From an uncultured beta proteobacterium (lineage in GTDB: Bacteria > Pseudomonadota > Gammaproteobacteria > Burkholderiales > SG8-41), in the NCBI GenBank assembly GCA_903913965.1, contig CAIWNB010000055.1, forward strand, positions 1-33,065: a DNA stretch of 33,065 nucleotides, read 5' to 3'. The stretch's first letter is position 1; each line of letters begins with the position of its first letter. Shown here one piece after another: positions 1,591 through 32,613 of this stretch. Below the pieces are notes generated by a model, which was not told the DNA's origin, did no database searches, and worked only from the letters and a program-made list of their open reading frames with translations. The translations under genes were made by a program, and so were the position numbers.

Positions 1591-2994
1591 CTAAATCACC
1601 CGCGAGTAACGGCGGCGCTCCTGATCCTGGCGCAAATAACGGTCAAAAACCATGCAGACATTGCGCACGAGCAGGCGCCCTTTGGCGGTGACGCGTATCT
1701 CCTGCGTGTTCATTTCGAGCATGCCGAGCGCTTCCATTTCGCGCAGCTCCTCCAACTCGGGCGCAAAGTATTGGTCGAAATCGATCAGATAGGCAATCGA
1801 CAGCGATCCCTTGTCGAGCGCGAAGTGGCACATCAGCGCACCAATGACCGCGCGCCGCAGCAAGTCGTCCGCAGACAGCTCAAGTCCCCGCATCACCGGT
1901 AGTTCACCGCGATCGAGAGTGTGATAGTAGTCCTCCAACCCGCGATGATTCTGACTGTAGGTCGGACCGATATTGCCGATCGCCGATACGCCGAGTGCCA
2001 GCAAATCACAGTCGGCATGCGTCGAATACCCCTGGAAATTACGGTGCAATAGTCCCTTGCGCTGCGCCACCGCAAGACCGTCTTCGCTCTTCGCAAAGTG
2101 ATCCATGCCGATGTACTGGTAACCAGCGCCGGTCAGACGCTGGATCGCCAGCATCAACAATTTCAGGCGCGTATCGGGCGACGGCAGATCAGCCTCGTTG
2201 ATACGCTGCTGCGGCTTGAAGAGCGACGGAATGTGCGCATAGTTATAAACCGCAATACGATCCGGCGCGGCGCTGATCACGCGTTCGATCGTGCGCTCGA
2301 AACTGACCAGCGTCTGCTTGGGCAGGCCGTAGATCAAGTCAACGTTGATGCCGGTAAAGCCATGTTCGCGTGCCGCCTGCATGACTTCGAGGGTTTCTTC
2401 CTCGCTCTGTATACGATGCACGGCGCGCTGTACATCCGGATCAAAATCCTGCACACCGATGCTCATGCGGTTAAAACCGAGCTTGCCCAGTCCGGCAACA
2501 TACTCGGCATCGGCGGAACGCGGATCGATCTCAATGGAATATTCACCCGACGGGTCAAACTCCACATGATCGCGCAGGCTCGCCATCAGATCGTTGACCT
2601 CGTCGATCAAAAAGAAATTCGGCGTGCCACCACCCCAGTGCATTTGCCGCACCTTGGTGTCGCCACCCAGTAGCGGCGTCTGCAGGGCGATTTCTTCCTT
2701 CAGGTAATTTAGATACACCGTACCCTTGCTACGATCGCGCGTCACGATCTTGTTGCAGCCGCAATAAAAACACAGCGTGCTGCAAAACGGTAAATGCAGG
2801 TAGAGAGCCAGTGGGCGGACGATGCCACCGACATTTCGACGCGCCATCCATGACTGATAGGCTTCGGCGTTATAAGACTCGACGAAACGGTCTGCCGTCG
2901 GGTAGGAGGTGTAGCGCGGCCCGCGGCCGTCAAACCGGCGGATTAGGTCAAGATCGACTTCAAGGGTCGGAATCACAGTGTTTGGCGTAGTCAC
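1591..2994 (-). CDS. hemN: Oxygen-independent coproporphyrinogen III dehydrogenase
   Basis: Radical SAM enzyme that converts coproporphyrinogen III to protoporphyrinogen IX without oxygen in haem synthesis; cytoplasmic. From the chosen GTG start the protein is 467 residues, close to E. coli HemN (457). Visible marks are RGPRYTSYPTADRF (about 24-37), the cluster motif C71-x3-C75-x2-C78-x-C80 and the GGGTPNF SAM-binding segment. The frame stays open upstream to a GTG at 3087. That start is disfavoured because the extension lacks family similarity and would place the 3056-3069 FNR box inside the coding region. A -10-like CATACT (minus strand, 3029-3034) sits 31 bp from the centre of that box, giving a predicted transcript start near 3021 and a leader of about 27 nt to the GTG. 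No strong ribosome site is visible, so the exact start is the least certain part. Confidence 0.93.
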   Translation of the reverse strand: MTTPNTVIPTLEVDLDLIRRFDGRGPRYTSYPTADRFVESYNAEAYQSWMARRNVGGIVRPLALYLHLPFCSTLCFYCGCNKIVTRDRSKGTVYLNYLKEEIALQTPLLGGDTKVRQMHWGGGTPNFFLIDEVNDLMASLRDHVEFDPSGEYSIEIDPRSADAEYVAGLGKLGFNRMSIGVQDFDPDVQRAVHRIQSEEETLEVMQAAREHGFTGINVDLIYGLPKQTLVSFERTIERVISAAPDRIAVYNYAHIPSLFKPQQRINEADLPSPDTRLKLLMLAIQRLTGAGYQYIGMDHFAKSEDGLAVAQRKGLLHRNFQGYSTHADCDLLALGVSAIGNIGPTYSQNHRGLEDYYHTLDRGELPVMRGLELSADDLLRRAVIGALMCHFALDKGSLSIAYLIDFDQYFAPELEELREMEALGMLEMNTQEIRVTAKGRLLVRNVCMVFDRYLRQDQERRRYSRVI

Positions 2995-3000
2995 GATATC

Positions 3001-3014
3001 TTGATTGTTATTAA
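3001..3014. promoter_or_regulatory. Second FNR-like box, hemN leader
   Basis: TTGAT-TGTT-ATTAA matches the FNR consensus TTGAT-N4-ATCAA at 9 of 10 fixed positions. It lies just upstream of the hemN GTG and downstream of the predicted hemN transcript start. If bound, it would fit a repressing or modulating role rather than activation. Its centre is 55 bp from the centre of the neighbouring box. Confidence 0.45.
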
Positions 3015-3055
3015 ATTCTTGAGGAGTTAGTATGGCTCGCTTGGAAATGGCGGTT

Positions 3056-3069
3056 TTGACATAGATCAA
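3056..3069. promoter_or_regulatory. FNR box between hemN and fnr
   Basis: TTGAC-ATAG-ATCAA matches the FNR consensus at 9 of 10 positions. For hemN (leftward) a -10-like CATACT at 3029-3034 is centred 31 bp away, as in a class II FNR-activated promoter (site near -41.5). For fnr (rightward) a better -10-like TATCAT at 3110-3115 is centred 50 bp away, as in a class I arrangement (site near -61.5). Both could be served by one box, including FNR autoregulation. Spacings were counted by eye. Confidence 0.7.
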
Positions 3070-3150
3070 CCATTGCCCGAATTGCACAGCAGACTACCCC
3101 GGCTCGACTTATCATTACGCCACTGCGTAGAAACTGGAAAAATTCAAAAA

Positions 3151-3906
3151 ATGAGCACTGTCATTCCAATCAGTTCGCATCACTTACGCGCCGCCTGTTC
3201 AGACTGCAGCCTTCAGGAGCTTTGCCTCCCCGCGGGTCTGGCGCCGGATGAAATGCATCGGCTCGACGAAATCGTCAACCGCAAACGCCCCCTCAAACGC
3301 GGCGACTACCTGTATCGCGCAGGGGGCGCCCTGCAATCGCTCTACGCTGTGCGCACCGGCTTCTTCAAGAGTTGCGTGATGCACGACGACGGCCGTGAGC
3401 AGGTCGCAGGCTTCCATATGGCCGGTGAAATGCTCGGCATGGACGGCATCGGCAGCGGCAAACACATGTGCGACGCGGTATCGCTGGAAGACAGCGAAGT
3501 CTGCGAAATCCCCTTCAACGATCTTGAGACCTTGAGCCGCCACATCCCCACACTGCAGCAGCACTTTCACCGCATTATGAGTCGCGAGATCGCGCGGGAT
3601 TACGGGGTCATGCTGTTGCTTGGCAGCATGCGTGCTGAAGAACGCCTGGCGGCGTTCCTGCTCAATCTGTCGCAGCGCTTTGCTGCCCGCGGTTACTCGT
3701 CGAAGAGTTTTTTGCTGCGCATGACGCGCAATGAAATCGGCAGCTACCTCGGTCTCAAGCTCGAAACCATCAGCCGCGCCCTCTCACACTTTCAGACCGA
3801 GGGCATCATTGCCGTGCAAAACAAAAGCGTCGAAATCCTCGACGCCGGACGACTGCGCGCGATGGTAAGCCAATGCTCGGTGGCCACCGCCCCCATGGCA
3901 CGCTGA
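3151..3906 (+). CDS. fnr: FNR-type oxygen-sensing transcription regulator
   Basis: Crp/Fnr-family activator of 251 residues that senses oxygen through a [4Fe-4S] cluster. The N-terminal cysteines C16-x2-C19-x5-C25 and C118, in the motif VCEIPF, match the four cluster ligands of E. coli FNR. A cyclic-nucleotide-binding-type beta-barrel follows, then a dimer helix and a helix-turn-helix with NEIGSYLGLKLETISRAL near residues 192-209. Its E-x2-S-R pattern is the one that reads TTGAT half sites. The ATG at 3151 is preferred over an upstream start at 3073 because it aligns with the family N-terminus. The gene is divergent from hemN across FNR boxes and only 51 bp upstream of the acetyltransferase gene, which may be co-transcribed. 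It is the obvious candidate for binding the FNR boxes in this window. Confidence 0.93.
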   Translation: MSTVIPISSHHLRAACSDCSLQELCLPAGLAPDEMHRLDEIVNRKRPLKRGDYLYRAGGALQSLYAVRTGFFKSCVMHDDGREQVAGFHMAGEMLGMDGIGSGKHMCDAVSLEDSEVCEIPFNDLETLSRHIPTLQQHFHRIMSREIARDYGVMLLLGSMRAEERLAAFLLNLSQRFAARGYSSKSFLLRMTRNEIGSYLGLKLETISRALSHFQTEGIIAVQNKSVEILDAGRLRAMVSQCSVATAPMAR

Positions 3907-3957: not shown

Positions 3958-6678
3958 ATGGACACCACCGCTACCCGCCATTACCTGGCACCGCTGTTCG
4001 AACCGGCGTCGGTGGTCATTATCGGCGCCAGCGAACGGGCTGACAGCATCGGCGCAGTGCTGATGCGCAATATGCTGGATACCAAGTTTTGCGGCGAGCT
4101 CTATGCCGTCAATCCACAGCATCGGTTTGTCCAGGGTGTGCGCTGCCATGCCACCATTGGTGATCTGCCCGCGGGCATCGATCTCGCCATCATTGCGACG
4201 AATGCCGCGTCCACGCCCGATCTCGTTGCGCAATGCGGCCTTGCCAATATCAAAGCGGCGGTCGTCATCAGCGCGGGATTCGGTGAAACTGGCGCGACCG
4301 GCGCAGCACTCGAAAAAGCCATGCTCGAGAATGCGCGCCGTTACAAGGTACGCCTGCTCGGCCCGAACTGCCTCGGCATCATGCGACCCTCGAGCGGCCT
4401 CAATGCAACCTTCGCACGCGGCAGCGCACGCGCCGGCTCGCTTGGCCTGATCTCCCAATCAGGCGCGGTCTGCACGGCACTGCTTGACTGGGCCATCCCC
4501 AATGACGTCGGCTTTTCCAGCATCGTTTCGCTCGGCGCTTCGGCCGACGTTGATTTTGGCGAGCTCATCGACTACCTCGTCAACGATCCGGCCACCGCGC
4601 ACATCCTGCTCTATATTGAAGGCGTGCGTGACGCGCGACGCTTTGTCAGCGCGCTGCGGGCTGCAGCACGCATCAAGCCGGTGATCCTGATGAAAGTCGG
4701 CCGTTATCCGGCCGGCTCGCGCGCCATCCAGTCGCACACGGGGGCCATGGTCGGCGGCGATGACGTGTTTGAAGCGGTAGTGCGCCGGACCGGCGTGGTC
4801 CGCGTCAAAACCGTCGGTCAACTGGTGGCGGCGGCGCAAGCCTTGTCGTCGCGCATCCGTCCGCAGGGTAATCGCCTGGCGATCATTACCAACGGCGGCG
4901 GCCCCGGTGTGATGGCCGCCGACCGTGCCACCGAATTGGGGCTGCCGCTGGCGAGCCTGGCATCCTCGACCATCGATGCGTTGCAGGATGCGTTGCCACC
5001 TACCTGGTCACACGGCAATCCGCTCGATTTGATTGGTGACGCCGACGCTAAACGCTACGGTGCCGCCGTGCAGGCTTGTGTGGCCGACCCCGCCGTCGAC
5101 GGCACACTGGTGATCTTGACGCCACAGGCAATGACCGATGCGATCGCCACCGCGCACGCCGTGGTCAAGGCCGCACAGGATTCGCGCAAACCGCTGATCG
5201 CCTGCTGGATGGGCGAACAATCGGTGGCGGCGGCACGCAGTGTATTCGCCGCGGCGCATATACCGGTGCTGCGCACGCCCGAACCGGCGGTGGATATGTT
5301 TGCCCACGTCTCATCGTTTTACATGAACCAGCAGACCCTGCTGCATACCCCTGCGCCGCGTGAACAGCAAACCGCGCCGGATATCGATACGGCAAAAGCC
5401 ATCATCGCCGCGGCCCTGGCTGCCGGCCGCGGCACGCTGACGCAAACCGAATCCAAGGCCGTGTTGAGCGCGTTCCGCATTCCGGTCGGACGCGCGTTGC
5501 CAGCGTCGGATCGCGGGCAAGCCGTACTGCGCGCCACCGAACTCGGTTATCCGGTGGCTGTAAAAATTGATTCGCCCGATATCAGCCACAAAAGTGATAT
5601 CGACGGCATACGCCTCAACCTGGCCGATGCTGCAGCCGTCAGCAAGGCGTTTGATGAGGTCACTGACAACGCGCGACGCCTGCGCCCCGCTGCACGCCTC
5701 TCCGGCGTGGTCGTCGAAAAAATGTTGTCTTCCAGCCAGTCACGCGAACTGATGCTGGGCATCGTACGCGACCCGGTGTTCGGGCCGACCATCGTCTTCG
5801 CCGCCGGCGGCACTGCAGCAGAAGTATTGCGCGACCGGGCACTCGACCTGCCCCCCCTCAACCAGCCGCTGGCCGCCGCCATGATCGCGCGCACCCGTGT
5901 TTCGCGCATGCTGGGCCCTTTCCGCAACCTGCGGGCCATCAACATGGCTGCCCTTGAGTCGACCCTATTGCGTATCTCGGAAATGGCCTGCGAACTGCCC
6001 TGGATCGATGAACTTGATGTCAACCCGCTAATAGTCGATGAGAGTGGCGTGATCGCGGTCGATGCACGTATCGTGATTTCAGCGCGCAACCCGCGGCTGC
6101 CTCACTATGCGCATCTGGCGATCCATCCCTACCCGTCGGAACTCGCCGGCGACTGCACGCTGCGCGGCGGCGAATGCCTGACCGTCAGACCCATCCGCCC
6201 GGAAGATGCCGACATGGAACAGGCGTTCGTACGCCGTCTATCGCCAGAGAGCCGCTATTTTCGTTTTATGGGCGCGGTGCGCGAACTGACACCCTCCATG
6301 CTGGTGCGCTTTACGCAAATCGATTATGACCGCGAGATGGCGTTTGTTGCCGTGCGTCGCGAAGAAAACGGTGCCGAAACAGAAGTTGGAGTCGCCCGTT
6401 ACATCACCAACCCGGACGGCCGCAGTTGTGAATTTGCCATCGTTGTCGAGGACACCTGGCAACGCCGCGGCCTGGGGCGACTGTTAATGCGGCGCCTGAT
6501 CGAGGTCGCGCAGGCGCGGGGCCTCAGCACAATGATCGGCTACGTCATCGCCAACAACGCCGGCATGCAAAAGCTGTGTAGCGGCCTCGGCTTTGTGCCG
6601 GCGCATATCGCCGGCGACGACGTGCGCTGCGTCACGCTGGCCATCGCCGACCCCGAGGCCTCCGTGCCGGCTACTTGA
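3958..6678 (+). CDS. patZ: PatZ-type protein lysine acetyltransferase with ADP-forming acyl-CoA synthetase domain
   Basis: A 906-residue protein with the layout of Pat/PatZ (YfiQ) enzymes, which acetylate lysines on targets such as acetyl-CoA synthetase. In order it has a CoA-binding domain (about 10-140, with VVIIGAS), a succinyl-CoA-ligase-like domain (about 155-460), an ATP-grasp domain (about 475-705) and a C-terminal GNAT domain (about 725-885). The GNAT acetyl-CoA loop is QRRGLGRLLM. The SHTGAMVGG motif at H260 corresponds to the phospho-histidine of ADP-forming acyl-CoA synthetases. That residue looks intact, so residual synthetase chemistry cannot be ruled out. The gene follows fnr by 51 bp on the same strand with no visible terminator, which links it to low-oxygen control. 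Its last 8 bp overlap the end of the convergent usp gene. No good ribosome site is visible before the ATG. Confidence 0.85.
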   Translation: MDTTATRHYLAPLFEPASVVIIGASERADSIGAVLMRNMLDTKFCGELYAVNPQHRFVQGVRCHATIGDLPAGIDLAIIATNAASTPDLVAQCGLANIKAAVVISAGFGETGATGAALEKAMLENARRYKVRLLGPNCLGIMRPSSGLNATFARGSARAGSLGLISQSGAVCTALLDWAIPNDVGFSSIVSLGASADVDFGELIDYLVNDPATAHILLYIEGVRDARRFVSALRAAARIKPVILMKVGRYPAGSRAIQSHTGAMVGGDDVFEAVVRRTGVVRVKTVGQLVAAAQALSSRIRPQGNRLAIITNGGGPGVMAADRATELGLPLASLASSTIDALQDALPPTWSHGNPLDLIGDADAKRYGAAVQACVADPAVDGTLVILTPQAMTDAIATAHAVVKAAQDSRKPLIACWMGEQSVAAARSVFAAAHIPVLRTPEPAVDMFAHVSSFYMNQQTLLHTPAPREQQTAPDIDTAKAIIAAALAAGRGTLTQTESKAVLSAFRIPVGRALPASDRGQAVLRATELGYPVAVKIDSPDISHKSDIDGIRLNLADAAAVSKAFDEVTDNARRLRPAARLSGVVVEKMLSSSQSRELMLGIVRDPVFGPTIVFAAGGTAAEVLRDRALDLPPLNQPLAAAMIARTRVSRMLGPFRNLRAINMAALESTLLRISEMACELPWIDELDVNPLIVDESGVIAVDARIVISARNPRLPHYAHLAIHPYPSELAGDCTLRGGECLTVRPIRPEDADMEQAFVRRLSPESRYFRFMGAVRELTPSMLVRFTQIDYDREMAFVAVRREENGAETEVGVARYITNPDGRSCEFAIVVEDTWQRRGLGRLLMRRLIEVAQARGLSTMIGYVIANNAGMQKLCSGLGFVPAHIAGDDVRCVTLAIADPEASVPAT

Positions 6679-7099
6679 CCACCATCACCGGCACCGCGGA
6701 CAGTTGCAACACCCGTGTTGCAACGGAACCCAGCAACATGTTTGCCGTCGCCCCCATGCCGCGTGTTGCCAGCACGATCAGGTCGCAGCGCGCAGCGTTG
6801 GCGTGCTGAACCAGCGTCTCGGCGACAGGCCCGACCAGCACGTGTTCGCTATAAGGGATGCCTGCGGCATCGAGCAAACCCTTGGCACCGCCAAGAGCCT
6901 GCTTGCCTTCCTCATCGTAATAACGCTGGATCTGTTCATTGCTGACCACCAGCCCCATGCGTGGCAAATGCGGCAGCGGCGCGTGAACAAACACCAGTTC
7001 GCATGCAGGCTTTTCACGGTAAAGACCGGCATGTTCGATCATATAGCGCGCAGTATTCAGGGAGTGCGCAGAACCATCCACTGCAAGCAAAATTTTCAT
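6671..7099 (-). CDS. Universal stress protein, UspA family
   Basis: A 142-residue single-domain universal stress protein. It begins MKILLAVDGSAHS, the usual beta-strand plus Asp nucleotide site. Near the C-terminus it has the glycine-rich ATP-binding loop TRGMGATANMLLGSV, followed by a final strand VPVMVV. Such proteins support survival in starvation or anoxia; the exact biochemical role is not readable here. It lies 69 bp downstream of a second usp gene on the same strand, so the two probably share the FNR-type promoter near 7710-7750. An AAGGG ribosome site precedes the ATG. Its 3' end overlaps the convergent patZ-like gene by 8 bp. Family assignment is secure, paralogue identity is not. 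Confidence 0.88.
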   Translation of the reverse strand: MKILLAVDGSAHSLNTARYMIEHAGLYREKPACELVFVHAPLPHLPRMGLVVSNEQIQRYYDEEGKQALGGAKGLLDAAGIPYSEHVLVGPVAETLVQHANAARCDLIVLATRGMGATANMLLGSVATRVLQLSAVPVMVVK

Positions 7100-7168: not shown

Positions 7169-7612
7169 TCAGCGATACACCAGCACCGGAATTTTGGAGT
7201 GCGAGAGCACTTTATTGGTCACGCTGCCCAACACCAGGCTGGCAATACCGCGCCTGCCGTGCGAGGACATGAAGATCACATCGCATTTGCATTTCTTCGC
7301 GGCGGCGATGATGCCGTCGTAGGGCGTTGCCGGTTTGTTCATCAAGGTCTTGAACGGCACACCGGCGGCCTTTGCCTGTTGCGCGATCTTCTCCAAAACA
7401 GCCTCGCCTGCGGCACGCGCACTGCGCTCGATATCGGCAATCGCGCGGGCGTCGACCGTATAACCGTCGCCGTAATACGGCGCGGGCATCGGATCAAGCC
7501 CATAGTAAGCCGTGACCGCGGCATTGATCTCCTTGGCCAACTCAAGCCCGGCCTTCACGGCTTTGGCGGCGACCGGGGAACCGTCGGTGGGAATCAAAAC
7601 ATGTTTGAACAT
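7169..7612 (-). CDS. Universal stress protein, UspA family
   Basis: A 147-residue universal stress protein starting MFKHVLIPTDGSPVAAKA and ending with the loop SSHGRRGIASLVLGSV and the strand IPVLVYR, the standard UspA nucleotide-binding fold. AAGGAG sits 8 nt before the ATG, a good ribosome site. The promoter region carries a perfect FNR box (7737-7750). A minus-strand TAAGAT at 7710-7715 is centred 31 bp from it, so oxygen-limited expression is predicted. In Pseudomonas aeruginosa several usp genes are under Anr control for anaerobic survival, which gives a precedent. The second usp follows 69 bp downstream and the two proteins are clearly different paralogues. Confidence 0.9.
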   Translation of the reverse strand: MFKHVLIPTDGSPVAAKAVKAGLELAKEINAAVTAYYGLDPMPAPYYGDGYTVDARAIADIERSARAAGEAVLEKIAQQAKAAGVPFKTLMNKPATPYDGIIAAAKKCKCDVIFMSSHGRRGIASLVLGSVTNKVLSHSKIPVLVYR

Positions 7613-7736: not shown

Positions 7737-7750
7737 TTGATGCAGATCAA
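7737..7750. promoter_or_regulatory. Perfect FNR box driving the usp pair
   Basis: TTGAT-GCAG-ATCAA matches the FNR/Anr consensus at all fixed positions. On the minus strand a -10-like TAAGAT (7710-7715) is centred 31 bp downstream, matching a class II site at about -41.5 for the usp pair. Confidence 0.75.
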
Positions 7751-7805: not shown

Positions 7806-7819
7806 TTGATCCATATCAA
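7806..7819. promoter_or_regulatory. Perfect FNR box driving the radical SAM gene
   Basis: TTGAT-CCAT-ATCAA matches the FNR/Anr/Dnr consensus exactly. A -10-like CATAAC at 7840-7845 is centred 30 bp to the right, giving a predicted start near 7853 and a leader of about 30 nt before the ATG at 7886. The same 14 bases recur in front of the second Crp/Fnr gene at 10174-10187. Confidence 0.75.
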
Positions 7820-7885
7820 CAATTCACCCGCGTCTTCAACATAACCTAGGGCCGTTTTAGCCATCCACCAAAGAAACCCAAAACC

Positions 7886-8842
7886 ATGCTCAAGATCACC
7901 GACCGCATCGATAACGTGACGCAGATTCCGGCGCAATACCAGCATGCCGCGTTGCCCGCTCCCAAGAGCGTGAAGATCGAAATATCTCCGCGCTGCAATT
8001 ACCGCTGCGGTTTTTGCGCGCTGCGCACGCGCGAGGTACAACCGAAATGGGATATGGATTTCGGCCTCTTCAAGCGCGTCACGCGTGAGATGCGCGAGGC
8101 CGGTGTCGAGGAAATCGGAGTTTTCTATCTGGGCGAATCCTTTATGAATCCGCGCCTCCTGGTCGACTGTATCCGCTATCTGAAAAGCGAACTGGAAATG
8201 CCCTATGTCTTTCTCACCTCCAACGCTTCAATGGCGTTTCCGGAGGCGCTCGACGAATGCATGGCCGCCGGACTGGATTCGCTGAAGTGGTCGGTCAATG
8301 CGGCCGACGAAGAGCAGTTTGAAAAAATCATGGGCGTCGCGGGACGCCTGTTCCGCCATGCCCTCACCAACATCCGCACCGCATGGGAACTGCGTCGCGA
8401 AAAAAATTACAAAACCGGCCTCTACGCCTCTTCCATTCGCTACGACGGTGAGCAACAGTCCAAGATGGAAGCATTGCTGCAGGACAAAGTGCTGCCCTAT
8501 GTCGACCAGCACTATTGGCTGCCGCTGTATTCCATGGGCGCGTTTGCCACGCAGCGTGAGAGCGAACTCGGCTACCGGCCTACCGCCGGCAATCAGGGCC
8601 GCATCGGCGCCTTGCGCGAACCGCTGCCGTGCTGGTCGGCCTTCACCGAAGGCCATGTCACCGCCGAAGGCAAACTCTCCGCCTGCTGTTTCGATGCCAC
8701 CGCAAACTGGACCATGGGCGACTTGAACAAGCTCTCGTTCATGGAGGCATGGAACTCCACGGACTTCGTCAGCCTGCGCGCCGCCCATCTGCGCAAGGAC
8801 GTGCGCGGCACCGTGTGCGAAAACTGCATCGCCTACGGCTGA
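7886..8842 (+). CDS. Radical SAM / SPASM-domain protein of unknown substrate
   Basis: A 318-residue cytoplasmic radical SAM protein. The SAM-cluster motif C37-x3-C41-x2-C44 lies in ISPRCNYRCGFCALR. A partial TIM barrel follows, with a FYLGESFMNP segment in place of the usual GGEP-type strand end. The C-terminal third has a SPASM-like cysteine set (PCWSAF, LSACCFD and VCENC) able to hold auxiliary iron-sulfur clusters. SPASM enzymes usually modify peptides or proteins, but some act on small molecules. No precursor peptide gene was recognised in the 273 bp upstream or the 85 bp downstream. Expression is predicted to be anaerobic from the perfect FNR box in front. The next gene, 85 bp downstream, encodes a flavoprotein with its own FNR-like box, suggesting a shared pathway. 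Family is secure, function unknown. Confidence 0.85.
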   Translation: MLKITDRIDNVTQIPAQYQHAALPAPKSVKIEISPRCNYRCGFCALRTREVQPKWDMDFGLFKRVTREMREAGVEEIGVFYLGESFMNPRLLVDCIRYLKSELEMPYVFLTSNASMAFPEALDECMAAGLDSLKWSVNAADEEQFEKIMGVAGRLFRHALTNIRTAWELRREKNYKTGLYASSIRYDGEQQSKMEALLQDKVLPYVDQHYWLPLYSMGAFATQRESELGYRPTAGNQGRIGALREPLPCWSAFTEGHVTAEGKLSACCFDATANWTMGDLNKLSFMEAWNSTDFVSLRAAHLRKDVRGTVCENCIAYG

Positions 8843-8870
8843 GACTCTCATCGGGCTATTCCGGCGCAAT

Positions 8871-8884
8871 TTGACCGGCATCAA
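8871..8884. promoter_or_regulatory. FNR-like box before the flavoprotein gene
   Basis: TTGAC-CGGC-ATCAA matches the FNR consensus at 9 of 10 positions, the same half-site variant as the hemN/fnr box. A -10-like GACAAT at 8907-8912 is centred 32 bp downstream, placing a transcript start close to 8919 and very near the ATG at 8928. The TTG at 8871 that could be read as a start codon is part of this box. Confidence 0.5.
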
Positions 8885-8927
8885 GGTCGGGCACGACGCA
8901 CGCACCGACAATGAGGTCGCTCAAACC

Positions 8928-10130
8928 ATGCCAACCGCCAACCTCACCCATAGCCCTGACACCGCCGCGCGACGCTGGACGCTGCGCGGTACCGCGTTGT
9001 TGCCGGTAGTACAGGGCGGCATGGGGATCGGCATTTCTGCCCACCGCCTTGCCGGCAACGTCGCCGCGCTGGGTGCGCTCGGTACGATTTCCAGCGTCGA
9101 TCTGCGCCACCATCACCCAGACCTGCTCGAGCGCACCGCCGGCTCAACCGACCGCGACGCCCTCAACGCGGTCAACCTGATCGCACTCGACCGCGAAATT
9201 CAGGCCGCCAAAAAGCTCGCCGGCGGCCACGGTGCAATCGCCGTCAACGTGATGAAAGCGGTCGCCGCACACGCCGATTACGTGCGCCAGTGCTGTGAGA
9301 GCGGCGCCGACGCCATTGTCATGGGCGCCGGCCTGCCGCTCGACCTGCCCGATATGACACGTGATTTCCCCTCCGTCGCGTTGATCCCGATATTGTCGGA
9401 TGTCCGCGGCACCGCGATCGTCATCAAAAAATGGCTGCGCAAAAACCGCCTGCCGGACGCCATCGTCATCGAACACCCGCGTTATGCCGGCGGCCATCTC
9501 GGCGCCACCCGTCCAGACGAAATCAACGACCCACGCTACGACTTCGAACCGGTGCTGAGCGGCATTTTTGACCTCATGCGCGAACTCGGACTCGAGCGTG
9601 AACGCATTCCATTGATCGCCGCGGGCGGCGTCAACACGCATGCTGCGCTCGACACACTGCTCGCCCTCGGGGCGGCCGCCGTGCAAATCGGCACGCCATT
9701 TGCCGTCACCGAGGAAGGCGATGCGCACCTCAATTTCAAAAAGGTATTGGCCAGCGCACAACGCGAAGACATCGTTGAATTCATGAGCGTGGCAGGGTTA
9801 CCTGCACGCGCCGTGCTCACACCCTGGCTGAAAAACTATCTGCGTCGCGAAAAAGCCCTGCAATCACATGCACGGGCCGACCAGCGGCGCTGCGTGCCGG
9901 GCCTGAACTGCCTGACCATTTGCGGGCTGCGCGATGGCCATGCCACATCGGGTCAGTTTTGTATTGATACGCGGTTAACTTATGCACTCAAGGGCGATGT
10001 CGGCAAGGGTCTGTTTTTTCGCGGCAGCGAAGGGCTGCCGTTTGGCAGCGCGATCCGTCCGGTCGCCGAGCTAATGGATTACCTGCTCACCGGACGCATC
10101 CCGGGGCTGGTCGCCGGTGGCGCCGCATGA
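8928..10130 (+). CDS. Nitronate monooxygenase-like FMN protein with C-terminal cysteine cluster
   Basis: A 400-residue flavoprotein of the nitronate monooxygenase / 2-nitropropane dioxygenase family. This TIM-barrel family also includes FabK-like NAD(P)H:flavin oxidoreductases. Seen are VVQGGMGIGIS (about 27-37), the catalytic-type AGGHLGATRP with H190, and the FMN phosphate region IAAGGVNTHAA plus AVQIGTPF (230-258). Beyond the usual core is a cysteine set C322-x5-C328-x3-C332-x12-C345 that could hold an iron-sulfur cluster; this part is inference. Family members oxidise nitronates or reduce flavin and quinone substrates, and the substrate here is unknown. The ATG at 8928 is chosen over a TTG at 8871 because the upstream stretch has no family similarity and overlaps an FNR-like box. 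It follows the radical SAM gene by 85 bp. Confidence 0.82.
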   Translation: MPTANLTHSPDTAARRWTLRGTALLPVVQGGMGIGISAHRLAGNVAALGALGTISSVDLRHHHPDLLERTAGSTDRDALNAVNLIALDREIQAAKKLAGGHGAIAVNVMKAVAAHADYVRQCCESGADAIVMGAGLPLDLPDMTRDFPSVALIPILSDVRGTAIVIKKWLRKNRLPDAIVIEHPRYAGGHLGATRPDEINDPRYDFEPVLSGIFDLMRELGLERERIPLIAAGGVNTHAALDTLLALGAAAVQIGTPFAVTEEGDAHLNFKKVLASAQREDIVEFMSVAGLPARAVLTPWLKNYLRREKALQSHARADQRRCVPGLNCLTICGLRDGHATSGQFCIDTRLTYALKGDVGKGLFFRGSEGLPFGSAIRPVAELMDYLLTGRIPGLVAGGAA

Positions 10131-10173: not shown

Positions 10174-10187
10174 TTGATCCATATCAA
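10174..10187. promoter_or_regulatory. Perfect FNR box before the second Crp/Fnr gene
   Basis: TTGAT-CCAT-ATCAA is identical to the box at 7806-7819. A -10-like TCTACT at 10210-10215 is centred 32 bp downstream, giving a predicted class II promoter with a leader of about 24 nt to the ATG at 10246. Confidence 0.75.
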
Positions 10188-10245: not shown

Positions 10246-11004
10246 ATGAATATGCGCGACGACCGGCTGGCCATACGCGAGTCCAGCCCGGCAATGAGTG
10301 TCCGGCCAAAAATGGCCGTTCACGATCTTGAGATAGTCTCCGCATTGCGCGGCGTGCCAGCGTTGCAGGCATTGCCTCAGGCCGTGATGACGCGCCTCGC
10401 AACAGGGGCAATCCGCCTTGATCTGATACGGGGTGAAAGCCTGTTCGGCGCAGAGGCGCATTGCGCCGGGCTGTATGTGGTGGCCTCCGGTCGCATCATG
10501 TTGAGCGTCGGCAGCGCAGAAGCCGGCCACAAGGTTATTCGCCTCGCCGAAGCGGGCGATATCCTCGGCCTGTCCGCCACGCTGCTCGGCCTCGACACGT
10601 TCGCCAGCGCTGAAGCCTTGGTCGACAGCACCGTCGTACTGCTGACGCGCGAAACACTGCTCGACCGCGCCGCACGCGACGTTTCGCTGGCCCTCGCTCT
10701 CGCCAATATCGGTGCACGTCAGTCGCGCAATCTTGCCATCGATCTCGAATCAGTGTCATTACAATCGGGCCGCGAACGCATCGTGAATTATCTGCTGGCG
10801 AATGCCGCCACGGGTCCGGCCGGACCACTCACTGTCTTGCTATCGGCGAAAAAGAGCATCATTGCGTCACGCCTTTCGGTCACCCCGGAATATTTTTCAC
10901 GCACCCTGCACGAACTGATCAGCGCTGGCGCCATCGCTGTTAACGGACGGCAGATCGTCATCCTCGACGCGGTGCGCCTGCGTCACAGCGATCACCCCGC
11001 CTAG
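10246..11004 (+). CDS. Crp/Fnr-family regulator, DNR-like, without Fe-S ligands
   Basis: A 252-residue Crp/Fnr-family transcription factor. It has an N-terminal effector barrel (about 30-145, with SLFGAEAHCAGLYVVASGR), a dimer helix and a C-terminal winged helix containing KKSIIASRLSVTPEYFSRTL. The E-x2-S-R recognition pattern predicts binding to TTGAT-type half sites like FNR. The N-terminal cysteine ligands of FNR are absent, and the DNA-binding part resembles DNR/NNR regulators that sense nitric oxide through haem. NO sensing here is an inference. A perfect FNR box lies in its promoter, so it is probably controlled by the upstream FNR or by itself. The aat gene follows 57 bp downstream. 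The start is ambiguous among ATG codons at 10246 and 10252, with no clear ribosome site. Confidence 0.82.
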   Translation: MNMRDDRLAIRESSPAMSVRPKMAVHDLEIVSALRGVPALQALPQAVMTRLATGAIRLDLIRGESLFGAEAHCAGLYVVASGRIMLSVGSAEAGHKVIRLAEAGDILGLSATLLGLDTFASAEALVDSTVVLLTRETLLDRAARDVSLALALANIGARQSRNLAIDLESVSLQSGRERIVNYLLANAATGPAGPLTVLLSAKKSIIASRLSVTPEYFSRTLHELISAGAIAVNGRQIVILDAVRLRHSDHPA

Positions 11005-25883: not shown

Positions 25884-26133
25884 TCAGGATAAGTATTTCG
25901 TATTTCGGAATATCCGGGAGAACGACGCAACGATTGTTGTTTTAATCGCGCCCGCCATCCTCGCGCCGGGACGTTTCAAAAAACACGCGCGAATGCTGCA
26001 CGCCTTCGGAAAGAATTTAGCATTTTGGACACTCGTGTCAAGCGCCCGAACATAGCACAACAAACGCTGCGGCAGAAAATACTCTGCAATATGCTGACTC
26101 TGCCTGATCCGTATTCGCCATGATTGACCTGCA

Positions 26134-26907
26134 TCAACCGCGTGACGATGCGCCGCCGTCTATTGTCACCACAGTGCCGCTCGTATACGAGGACAGGTCG
26201 GAACAAAGAAAGGTCACCATGTTCGCCACTTCCGCAATACTCGCAAGACGACCGCCGGGCAGGCGCGCCGTCAACTCACGCCAGCGTTCCGCATCCCCCA
26301 GCTCGGTACTGGCACGCCCTTTCAGAAAACCATAAACACGATCTGTTTCAGTCGGGCCGGGGTTCACCGCAAGCACACGCACACCATGATCAAGACTCTC
26401 CCCGCCAAGGGCGCGTGACAGCGCAATGATCGCCGCGTTACCCATGCTGCCGGCCACATAACCGGCCAGCGGTCGTTCGCCGGCGGTGCCGGCGATATTG
26501 ACGATGACGCCGCGACGACGGCTGCACATACGCGGGTAAATCATGCGCATCAGATGGATATAACCAAACACCTTCAGATCCCAGGCCTGCCGCCAGGTCA
26601 ATTCATCCACCGACGCCAGCGTACCGGCGGGTATGGCTCCGGCGTTATTGATCAGAATATCGATGTCACCGCAGGTCTCGGCCAGCCCATTCAAGCTATC
26701 AAAGCGTGACAAATCCAAGGCATGGGGCGTCACTTCGACTTGATATTCGTCCTTGATCTGCGTCACTGCCCGCTGCAGATCCTCTGCGCTGCGCGACGCC
26801 AGATGCAAATGACAGCCCGCCGCTGCCAGCCCCTTGGCGATGCCAAAACCAATGCCACGCGAGCCGCCGGTGATTAATGCAATACGACCTTTTAGATTCA
26901 ACTCCAT
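26134..26907 (-). CDS. SDR-family protein with degenerate catalytic site
   Basis: A 257-residue classical-length short-chain dehydrogenase/reductase. The cofactor loop TGGSRGIGFGIA (13-24), NNAG (87-90) and the C-terminal YTSGTVVTIDGG are intact. The active-site block is not: the expected Y-x3-K is Y150-V-A-G-S154, and the catalytic Ser region reads VNIAGTAG. It may bind NAD(P) but use different chemistry or act on an unusual substrate. The ATG at 26907 has AGGA 7 nt upstream and aligns with the family start, so an upstream in-frame start at 26982 is rejected. It is downstream of a Bug gene on the same strand (81 bp gap) and may share its transcript. Confidence 0.85.
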   Translation of the reverse strand: MELNLKGRIALITGGSRGIGFGIAKGLAAAGCHLHLASRSAEDLQRAVTQIKDEYQVEVTPHALDLSRFDSLNGLAETCGDIDILINNAGAIPAGTLASVDELTWRQAWDLKVFGYIHLMRMIYPRMCSRRRGVIVNIAGTAGERPLAGYVAGSMGNAAIIALSRALGGESLDHGVRVLAVNPGPTETDRVYGFLKGRASTELGDAERWRELTARLPGGRLASIAEVANMVTFLCSDLSSYTSGTVVTIDGGASSRG

Positions 26908-26988
26908 GAATTTATCCTGACTATTAATAGGGTATGACGATACACGGCATCTTTCCGATGCAAAAATCCGGCGCCCCGGCAAAAAAAT

Positions 26989-30837: not shown

Positions 30838-31002
30838 TTTATAAATAGTTACAACGAACAACCATACTCGGGCATCAGGCCTAAGGTCAAGTCGCGCATT
30901 TCACGCTGCAAGAAAACCAGACCGCCGGTAAGCCCCACGCTCGCTTGAAAAAGCGAAATGCGTTAGCCTTGCTGATCTTGAATCATTTGTGATCGACATC
31001 AA

Positions 31003-32613
31003 ATGCAGGAGACATACTCATACGACTATGTGATCGTCGGCGCCGGCAGCGCGGGCTGCGTTCTTGCCAACCGTCTGACGGCTTGCGGACGCTATCGAGT
31101 GCTTCTTCTTGAAGCGGGAGGCGAAGACCGTAACCCCTGGCTACATATCCCGCTTGGATATGGAAAAAGCTTCAGCAATCCGAACGTAAACTGGCTCTAT
31201 ACGGGCGAACCAGAAGCTGGGAGCGGCAACCGCCGTATTGCGCAACCGCGCGGCAAGGTGCTCGGTGGATCAAGCTCCATCAACGGCCTGGTTTATATCC
31301 GTGGCCAGCACGAAGACTACGATCACTGGCGCGACCTCGGTAACGCCGGCTGGGGTTTTGAAAATGTGCTGCCTTATTTTCGCCGCTCTGAGAATCAACA
31401 GCGCGGCAGCGACGCTTATCACGGCGTCGGCGGGCCACTCTGCATCAGCGATCCCTCGGAACCCCATCCGCTGTGCGAGGCGTATATCGCAGCCGCTGAA
31501 GCCTGCGGTTATCCGCGCAATCCTGATTTCAACGGCGCTCGCCAGGAGGGTTTCGGTTACGTTCAGCTGACGCTGCGCAAGGGCTTGCGCAGCAGTACTG
31601 CGACCGGGTATCTGCGTCCGGCACGACGACGGGACAACCTGAAGGTCATCACACACGCGCATGCAACACGCCTTCTATTCACCGACAAAAAAGTGACGGG
31701 GGTCGAGTATATCCGTCAAGGACGCAGACACGTCGCACACGCGGGTCGCGAAGTCATTTTATCCGCTGGCGCATTTAATTCGCCGCAACTCATGCAGCTG
31801 TCAGGACTCGGTCCCGCGTCCTTGCTGCAGCGTTTTGGCATCCCGGTGGTGGCCGATATGCCGGAGGTGGGCGCCAATCTGCAGGATCATTACAACGGGA
31901 AACTGGTCTATCAAAGCAGCGAACCGTTTACGCTCAACGATGTCGTGGGCCATTTTGGCAAGGGGGTCGCCGCCGCGCTGCGCTACCTGTTTCTGCGCAA
32001 AGGCGTGCTGATGATGGGCGCCTCCTACGCAGCGGGTTTTTTGCGTACCGACCCCACCTTGTCCCGACCGGATATCCAGGCCGGTCTGGCACTGTTCAGT
32101 GGTGACAAGGCCGGCGATAACCTGCATCCTTTTTCCGGGTTTTCACTGGTCGTTAGGCTCTTGCAGCCGGAGAGCAGGGGCAGCGTGGCGATACAAAGTG
32201 TAGATCCCCTGCAGGCGCCGGCAATCCGCCCCAATTATCTGTCTACTGCAAAGGATAGGGCGGCGCTGCTGGCGGGCGTCAAAGCGGTCCGCCGCATCAT
32301 GGATACACCTGCCATGCGCCGCTATGTGGTGCGTGAACACGAGCCCGGCACGGCCTGCGTCAGCGATGAGGATCTGCTTATGTATATACAGCGCCGCGGC
32401 GGCATCAGCTACCATCCGGTTGGAACTTGCCGGATGGGTAGCGATTCGAACGCAGTGGTTGACGACCATCTACGCGTGCGCGGCATTCCAGGTTTGCGTG
32501 TAGTCGATGCTTCCATCATGCCGACGATTGTTTCGGGCAACACCAACGCACCCACCATCATGATCGCAGAAAAAGGAGCTGACATGATCCTGGAGGATGC
32601 GGCAAAAGCTTAA
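31003..32613 (+). CDS. GMC-family FAD alcohol dehydrogenase (choline dehydrogenase-like)
   Basis: A 536-residue flavoprotein of the glucose-methanol-choline oxidoreductase family, which oxidises alcohols to aldehydes. It has the FAD-binding start [17 protein letters not shown] (residues 6-22), [18 protein letters not shown] near 85-102, [18 protein letters not shown] in the middle and the catalytic pair H471 ([11 protein letters not shown]) and N515 ([10 protein letters not shown]). Relatives include BetA and alkanol dehydrogenases such as AlkJ; the substrate here is not known. The next gene, an acyl-CoA dehydrogenase on the same strand 122 bp on, suggests continued oxidation of an acyl-CoA. 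The ATG has only a weak ribosome site, and an upstream gap contains paired palindromes. Confidence 0.92.

Follow-up and report, generated by a model that had tools for sequence, protein, structure and literature searches.

Do two neighbouring genes on a betaproteobacterial contig, one for a radical S-adenosylmethionine (SAM) protein and one for a flavoprotein, form an anaerobic system not described before? The question is raised by a stretch of 33,065 nucleotides (nt) from an uncultured beta proteobacterium (contig CAIWNB010000055.1), referred to here as the window, meaning the whole of the DNA analysed. A preliminary description, made from the sequence alone, had reported a SPASM-type radical SAM gene and a gene of the nitronate monooxygenase (NMO) family, adjacent on the same strand and each with its own FNR-type box, and had put the pair forward as a candidate undescribed system. 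Open reading frames (ORFs) were assigned with Pfam and curated NCBIfam models and their cut-offs. FNR boxes were sought as TTGATN4ATCAA, perfect or with at most one mismatch, with the reversed pattern and shuffles as controls. The explanation preferred here, at a probability of roughly 0.6, is that the genes are a pair within an FNR regulon, encoding UfaA and a radical SAM oxidation enzyme, and that regulation is what they share. The adjacency, the common strand and the box before each gene all stand as reported, and the features concerned are the following.

7737..7750, no strand: perfect FNR-type box between the divergent universal stress protein (Usp) and radical SAM genes
7806..7819, no strand: perfect FNR-type box upstream of the radical SAM gene
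7886..8842, plus strand: radical SAM/twitch protein, 318 amino acids (aa) (Pfam Radical_SAM 2.7e-14, SPASM 8.7e-11)
8871..8884, no strand: FNR-type box with one mismatch, upstream of ufaA
8928..10130, plus strand: ufaA, probable UfaA/FabX-type flavoprotein (flavin mononucleotide (FMN), predicted [4Fe-4S]), 400 aa from the inferred ATG (Pfam NMO 1.5e-33)
10174..10187, no strand: perfect FNR-type box upstream of an FtrB/DNR-like regulator gene

The two genes lie head to tail, with 85 nt between them. The in-frame ATG at 8928 (bases checked) was taken as the probable start of ufaA because the TTG at 8871 given in the ORF list is the first triplet of the one-mismatch FNR-type box, TTGACCGGCATCAA.

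According to the preliminary description neither protein matched a pathway that could be named, and for the flavoprotein this did not hold. Its sequence, key residues and distribution leave little doubt that it is of the UfaA/FabX type, a type already described, whose part in making unsaturated fatty acids has been published. A profile of 17 orthologues matched Helicobacter pylori FabX (PDB 7E1Q) at 214 bits over profile positions 8–373 of 376, the next chain being FabK at 62 bits. The predicted model, with a mean predicted local distance difference test (pLDDT) score of 79 and a cysteine loop of low confidence (pLDDT about 33), gave five best Foldseek matches that were all FabX entries (best E 3.5e-26; FabK, 5.9e-16). 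Four cysteines, C308, C314, C318 and C331, and the histidine H176 of a GGH motif (numbered from window position 8970) are invariant in 17/17 rows and correspond to C300/C304/C308/C320 and H182 of FabX. In FabX these cysteines hold a [4Fe-4S] cluster beside FMN, His182 is catalytic, and oxygen is the acceptor (PMC8626469). The two proteins differ in that identity is about 32%, the cysteine spacing is Cx5Cx3Cx12C in the window protein and Cx3Cx3Cx11C in FabX, and the window gene appears to be part of an anoxia regulon whereas FabX uses oxygen. A detoxifying nitronate monooxygenase was considered and rejected, as the closest solved relatives are FabX and then FabK, with nitronate monooxygenases scoring lower. 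A scan of viral contigs found no UfaA relative.

UfaA of Neisseria gonorrhoeae, reportedly the subject of work by Isabella and Clark in 2011, is presumably the protein NGO1024. It has been described in anaerobic unsaturated fatty acid synthesis, in bacteria without FabA. Like the window protein it is an NMO-family flavoprotein; the gonococcal gene is induced anaerobically, and the window gene has, correspondingly, an FNR-type box and a distribution that excludes FabA. The gonococcal gene differs in that its table row names MtrR. Induction of NGO1024 in anoxia is given as 9.6- and 7.9-fold (PMC3032703). A "putative 2-nitropropane dioxygenase", possibly an orthologue, is named in the figure list of a study of the redox regulator RegAB in Burkholderia (PMC8191878).

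The distribution of UfaA was followed in 200 genomes of the order, with FabA counted only above its curated cut-off; all co-occurrence p-values treat genomes as independent, though many are kin. UfaA was found in 71/200 genomes, with one match each, 57–100% identical to the window protein. FabA was found in 12/200, none of which carried UfaA (p 0.009), and 117/200 had neither; UfaA thus occurs in place of FabA, and the two exclude each other. Other genes of anaerobic metabolism accompany it: UbiU was present in 38/71 UfaA genomes versus 27/129 others (p 4e-6) and NrdD in 36/71 versus 19/129 (p 1e-7). No such link was seen for NosZ (12/71 versus 16/129, p 0.40), which at E up to 1e-80 was detected in 28/200 genomes, 16 of them above the curated cut-off. 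The window's own genome carries UfaA and UbiU, and searches of it for FabA, NosZ and NrdD found none. Database labels reading "nitronate monooxygenase" hide enzymes of the UfaA/FabX type, and the four-cysteine motif together with the exclusion of FabA offers a simple route to relabelling them and to predicting in which bacteria unsaturated fatty acids may be made anaerobically.

A role in anoxia through FNR-type control, as first proposed, is well supported for both genes by the boxes upstream of them and of their relatives. In the 4.95-Mb genome the perfect pattern occurs at 29 sites, versus 0 for the reversed control, and three of these fall within 2.5 kb here (7737, 7806 and 10174). With at most one mismatch the window holds nine sites where 0.66 are expected, and 0/100 shuffles reached nine. 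Around other boxes of the genome 20 regions were taken, and seven of ten genes searched had a family match at 1e-30. Among these, lying downstream of boxes, are ccoN, a gene for a UbiD-like decarboxylase (below cut-off) and one for a DmsE-type decahaem cytochrome, and the genome's own ubiU (C373:3096) comes after a box at C373:2905; by its sequence, the box-associated gene set looks like an FNR regulon. In Sphingopyxis granuli, FNR boxes are reported before ccoN, hemN and uspA (PMC7713065). Two one-mismatch boxes elsewhere in the window could be chance: 26124–26137 lies partly within the 3' end of a gene for a short-chain dehydrogenase (26134–26982, minus strand), and 30989–31002 lies directly before a choline-dehydrogenase-like gene (31003–32613, plus strand).

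Relatives of the radical SAM gene were collected by a scan of GTDB genomes, which returned 143; locus results cover the best 80 of the 143. The upstream 250 nt could be scored in 79 of 81 loci (the 80 and the window), two having too little upstream DNA. A perfect box was found in 26 and a one-mismatch box in 16, giving 42/79 versus 0.23% in shuffles. The box is kept where the gene stands amid ordinary genes of aspartyl-tRNA-synthetase, NUDIX and phospholipase-D type (L063, L070, L120), where it lies beside EF-G (L075), and in L104, whose searched neighbours are acetyl-CoA hydrolase, methylase, PEP-CTERM and TPR proteins. On this pattern the radical SAM gene is very probably under FNR control in its own right. 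For ufaA, a box with at most one mismatch was present within 300 nt of the aligned start in 22/41 loci (the window not among them), a count that stands without a shuffle control of its own.

The SPASM-type assignment of the radical SAM protein stands in part. Pfam does recognise a SPASM domain, and the SAM-cluster motif CX3CX2C is formed by C37/C41/C44. A full SPASM domain, with two auxiliary clusters, carries a seven-cysteine motif. Here that motif is absent, the chain ending four residues past the last CxxC cysteine, and the only conserved cysteines in the C-terminal part are C249, C267, C268, C311 and C314; "SPASM" therefore appears to denote a short twitch form with four conserved cysteines (C249, C267, C311, C314). 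An alignment of 69 rows, which include three diverged paralogues, was made after leaving out L115 and L119 (stops or unknown residues), L058 and 12 rows more than 93% alike; in it the three SAM-cluster and four twitch cysteines were invariant in 69/69 rows and C268 was kept in 67. The predicted model (pLDDT 88.9) had as its best structural match BtrN, the 2-deoxy-scyllo-inosamine dehydrogenase (PDB 4M7T), with Z 21.4 and a root-mean-square deviation of 2.9 over 233 residues. The two proteins have in common a radical SAM core and four cysteines for one auxiliary cluster; they differ in that identity is 15% and in the FNR-regulon setting of the window gene. BtrN is described as a two-electron dehydrogenase with a four-cysteine auxiliary cluster (PMC9012708).

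Against curated NCBIfam models the radical SAM protein gave no hit at cut-off, so that for this protein the original statement that no pathway could be named stands. Strong orthologues (E < 1e-140) were found in 9/200 genomes of the order, which represent four families only, four of the nine coming from the window's own family; weaker matches in G458, G382 and G350 (E 6e-40 to 1e-18) were not counted. A class-wide sample of 274 genomes yielded, besides the window's own, one relative 55% identical and two weak matches of 23–28% identity (G054, G218), likewise not counted as orthologues. Several loci of the scan (L071, L078, L084, L090, L103, L127, L130) are shared with the order and class samples, and the sets thus overlap. 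Betaproteobacteria are named in the titles of 64 of the best 80 loci, largely from metagenome-assembled genomes; misbinning may account for some of the rest. A plasmid search gave 19 records, all below 60% identity, and in open-access literature no recognisable paper was found on the gene pair or on the radical SAM family. The family is uncharacterised and mainly betaproteobacterial, with a BtrN-like four-cysteine twitch domain. A diverged tandem second radical SAM gene, 39–51% identical to that of the window, lies directly upstream of the orthologue in three loci (L069:6931-7869, L071:7093-7956, L081:3-872).

The neighbourhood of the radical SAM gene was compared in 53 evaluable loci, those in which the contig extends 3 kb or more to either side of the gene. 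Within 3 kb, Usp was found in 17, UfaA in 16, an FtrB-like regulator in 13, ccoN in 8, FNR in 6, hemN and hemerythrin in 4 each, nrdD in 3 and nnrS in 1; any of these anaerobic neighbours was present in 31/53. By simple arithmetic (7 kb in about 4 Mb) UfaA would be adjacent by chance in roughly 0.2% of loci. Usp is about as frequent a neighbour as UfaA, and is placed upstream in either orientation or downstream in the same orientation. On a quick tree with many weak forks, 48 of the 69 rows could be scored, the other 21 being on contigs too short. With the two genes on one strand, UfaA followed the radical SAM gene in 10 rows and preceded it in 4; on the opposite strand it lay downstream in 3 and upstream in 2, and in 29 rows (one a paralogue) it was not in the stretch. 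Its state changes at least 11 times. Conserved adjacency, which the preliminary description had suggested looking for, thus recurs far above chance and in four placements, but the genes also separate. In some relatives the company is wider: L114 carries on one strand ubiU, ubiV, ubiT, ufaA, hemerythrin, radical SAM and hemN; L111 carries ubiU, ubiV, ubiT, ufaA and radical SAM; and L127 has, immediately upstream on the opposite strand, ufaA, an nrdG-like radical SAM gene and nrdD. The UbiUVT, HemN and NrdDG set resembles the radical SAM gene in having FNR-type boxes (own-genome ubiU) and, in some relatives, a shared neighbourhood, and differs in that its reactions are known.

A gene with SIS and CBS domains (probably of KdsD type) stands beside the radical SAM gene in L101:8001-10643, L129, L110 and L100, three of which also have a 226-aa gene. 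Guesses at the substrate from such neighbours (KdsD type in L101 and others, PilB/PilC types in L112) were set aside, as they are not widely repeated. In some relatives a cluster of antisense ORFs separates the radical SAM gene from that for UfaA and resembled a gene lacking any Pfam match; it was likewise dismissed, as it mirrors the FtrB/DNR-like regulator gene encoded opposite.

Whether the two proteins act in one pathway, with the radical SAM enzyme acting on, maturing or extending the UfaA product as part of a dedicated anaerobic lipid-modifying pair, can be judged from their co-occurrence. UfaA is present in 8/9 radical SAM genomes of the order and in 63/191 others (p 0.0012, the four families being borne in mind), and the recurrent proximity in 16/53 loci, in varied placement and with repeated change on the tree, speaks for such a pair as well. 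Where the two occur in these nine genomes, they share a contig, at most about 3.2 kb apart, in six and are on different contigs in two; the ninth genome, G371, carries FabA. Against a pathway, the radical SAM orthologue is missing in 63/71 UfaA genomes. Whole genomes were also searched for 51 radical SAM carrier entries, picked mostly for having no UfaA beside the gene and thus biased. UfaA was found in 16, FabA in 13, both in 0 and neither in 22, completeness mostly not being given; since G177 and the L130 genome are evidently one assembly, the 13 entries are 12 genomes and the 51 are 50. UfaA is thus missing in 35/51. L059:1695-10607 even keeps the window order of hemN, fnr, fusion gene, both usp genes, radical SAM, regulator and aat, with a perfect box, and a search of that genome found no ufaA, between radical SAM and regulator or elsewhere, and no FabA. 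As the radical SAM gene persists in genomes with FabA and without UfaA, and most UfaA genomes lack it, neither enzyme depends on the other, and a lipid-modifying pair is improbable. The two genes are members of one anaerobic regulon rather than a demonstrated two-part system, and their proximity is best put down to common regulation and common need; neither a complex nor an obligate pathway is implied. What remains of the candidate undescribed system is its uncharacterised radical SAM family. A tie to denitrification was not borne out either, NosZ being present in 2/9 radical SAM genomes versus 26/191 others (p 0.62).

Alternatively, the radical SAM enzyme might act on a protein rather than a small molecule, maturing a metalloenzyme or a stress protein, for example the Usp encoded next to it. 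Faint model scores lean this way (tungsten-enzyme maturase, 57.6 with a cut-off of 380; Geobacter metalloenzyme maturase, 46.8 with a cut-off of 400), as do the frequency of Usp among the neighbours and the presence of the peptide- or protein-acting SuiB, SkfB, ChlB and anSME among the structural matches at Z 19–20. Usp is nevertheless not within 3 kb in 36/53 evaluable loci, the spacing of the window genes leaves no room for a peptide gene, and only the four twitch cysteines are conserved, with no second auxiliary set. This last argument is weak, because the peptide-acting SkfB is reportedly also discussed with twitch domains, and protein modification is on the whole unlikely. Plain clustering, in which anaerobic islands collect FNR-controlled genes of unrelated function and the radical SAM protein serves signalling, defence or something else, seems rather less probable still. 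It would account for neighbours as varied as cbb3 oxidase, nitrate reductase, NnrS, Usp and hemN, and a defence role finds an echo in a faint viperin similarity (PADLOC pVip, 1.5e-07) and in viperins among the structural matches at Z 18–20. The FNR boxes, however, go with the radical SAM gene itself, and viperin was rejected on curated models that score far below cut-off (42.7 versus 450, 21.7 versus 180 bits). Viperins, moreover, are not known to carry a conserved twitch domain with four cysteines.

Under the preferred explanation, an FNR-regulon pair of UfaA and a radical SAM oxidation enzyme, a fall in oxygen would lead FNR to switch on both genes. UfaA, with FMN and its [4Fe-4S] cluster, would dehydrogenate and isomerise acyl chains on acyl carrier protein, to judge from FabX and UfaA, and so supply unsaturated acyl chains without an oxygen-dependent desaturase and without FabA. 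The radical SAM enzyme would cleave SAM and take hydrogen from a small substrate, and a second electron would pass to the auxiliary cluster, amounting to a two-electron oxidation that needs no O2. It may work alongside UfaA, UbiUVT, HemN and NrdD, its neighbours in some relatives. That the radical SAM protein is a small-molecule dehydrogenase is proposed tentatively, at slightly less than even odds. More speculative is the idea that the radical SAM/twitch family is an oxygen-independent version of an O2-using biosynthetic or repair oxidation, with a reaction new to any organism, which would add the family to the anaerobic toolkit that includes UbiUVT, HemN, NrdD and UfaA. In practical terms, the family provides a gene that many Betaproteobacteria retain, that appears to be under FNR control and whose role in anoxia could be tested by deletion.

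Several results weigh against this explanation. DesII ties with BtrN in structural similarity (Z 21.0), and other radical SAM folds, viperins, SuiB, SkfB and anSME among them, score about 18–20, so that the chemistry cannot be read from the fold. Across whole genomes, the radical SAM gene has no statistical tie to UbiU (4/9, p 0.48) or NrdD (3/9, p 0.71). None of the listed anaerobic neighbours is present in 22/53 loci, and a box with at most one mismatch is missing in 37/79. In five box-less loci (L064, L073, L076, L077, L102) the radical SAM gene follows usp, and in some, such as L064 and L073, it may share the usp promoter. As FabX needs oxygen as its acceptor, the anaerobic reaction of UfaA is left unexplained, which raises the question of its electron acceptor when oxygen is absent.

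Elsewhere in the window the following genes flank the pair, which lies, as originally noted, between two Usp genes and an FtrB/DNR-like regulator gene (Pfam, NCBIfam).

1591..3087, minus strand: hemN, oxygen-independent coproporphyrinogen III oxidase (TIGR00538, 589 bits, cut-off 325)
3073..3906, plus strand: FNR, oxygen-sensing regulator (NF008365, 272 bits, cut-off 228)
3958..6678, plus strand: fusion of acetate-CoA-ligase type and GNAT acetyltransferase domains, 906 aa (Pfam, NCBIfam)
6671..7099, minus strand: universal stress protein (Pfam Usp 9.7e-24)
7169..7612, minus strand: universal stress protein (Pfam Usp 1.7e-29)
10246..11004, plus strand: CRP/FNR-family regulator, FtrB/DNR-like (best curated model NF006901 (FtrB), 79.7 bits, below the cut-off of 211)
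After this regulator in the gene list: aat and arginyltransferase genes

The FNR protein shows CxxCx5C near its N terminus, and its true start is probably downstream of the listed TTG; the FtrB/DNR-like regulator, read in the same way, has a single cysteine and no FNR cluster set. The hemN gene is a neighbour in the same anaerobic island as the radical SAM gene and ufaA, and the 906-aa ligase/acetyltransferase fusion gene sits inside the FNR/Usp island.

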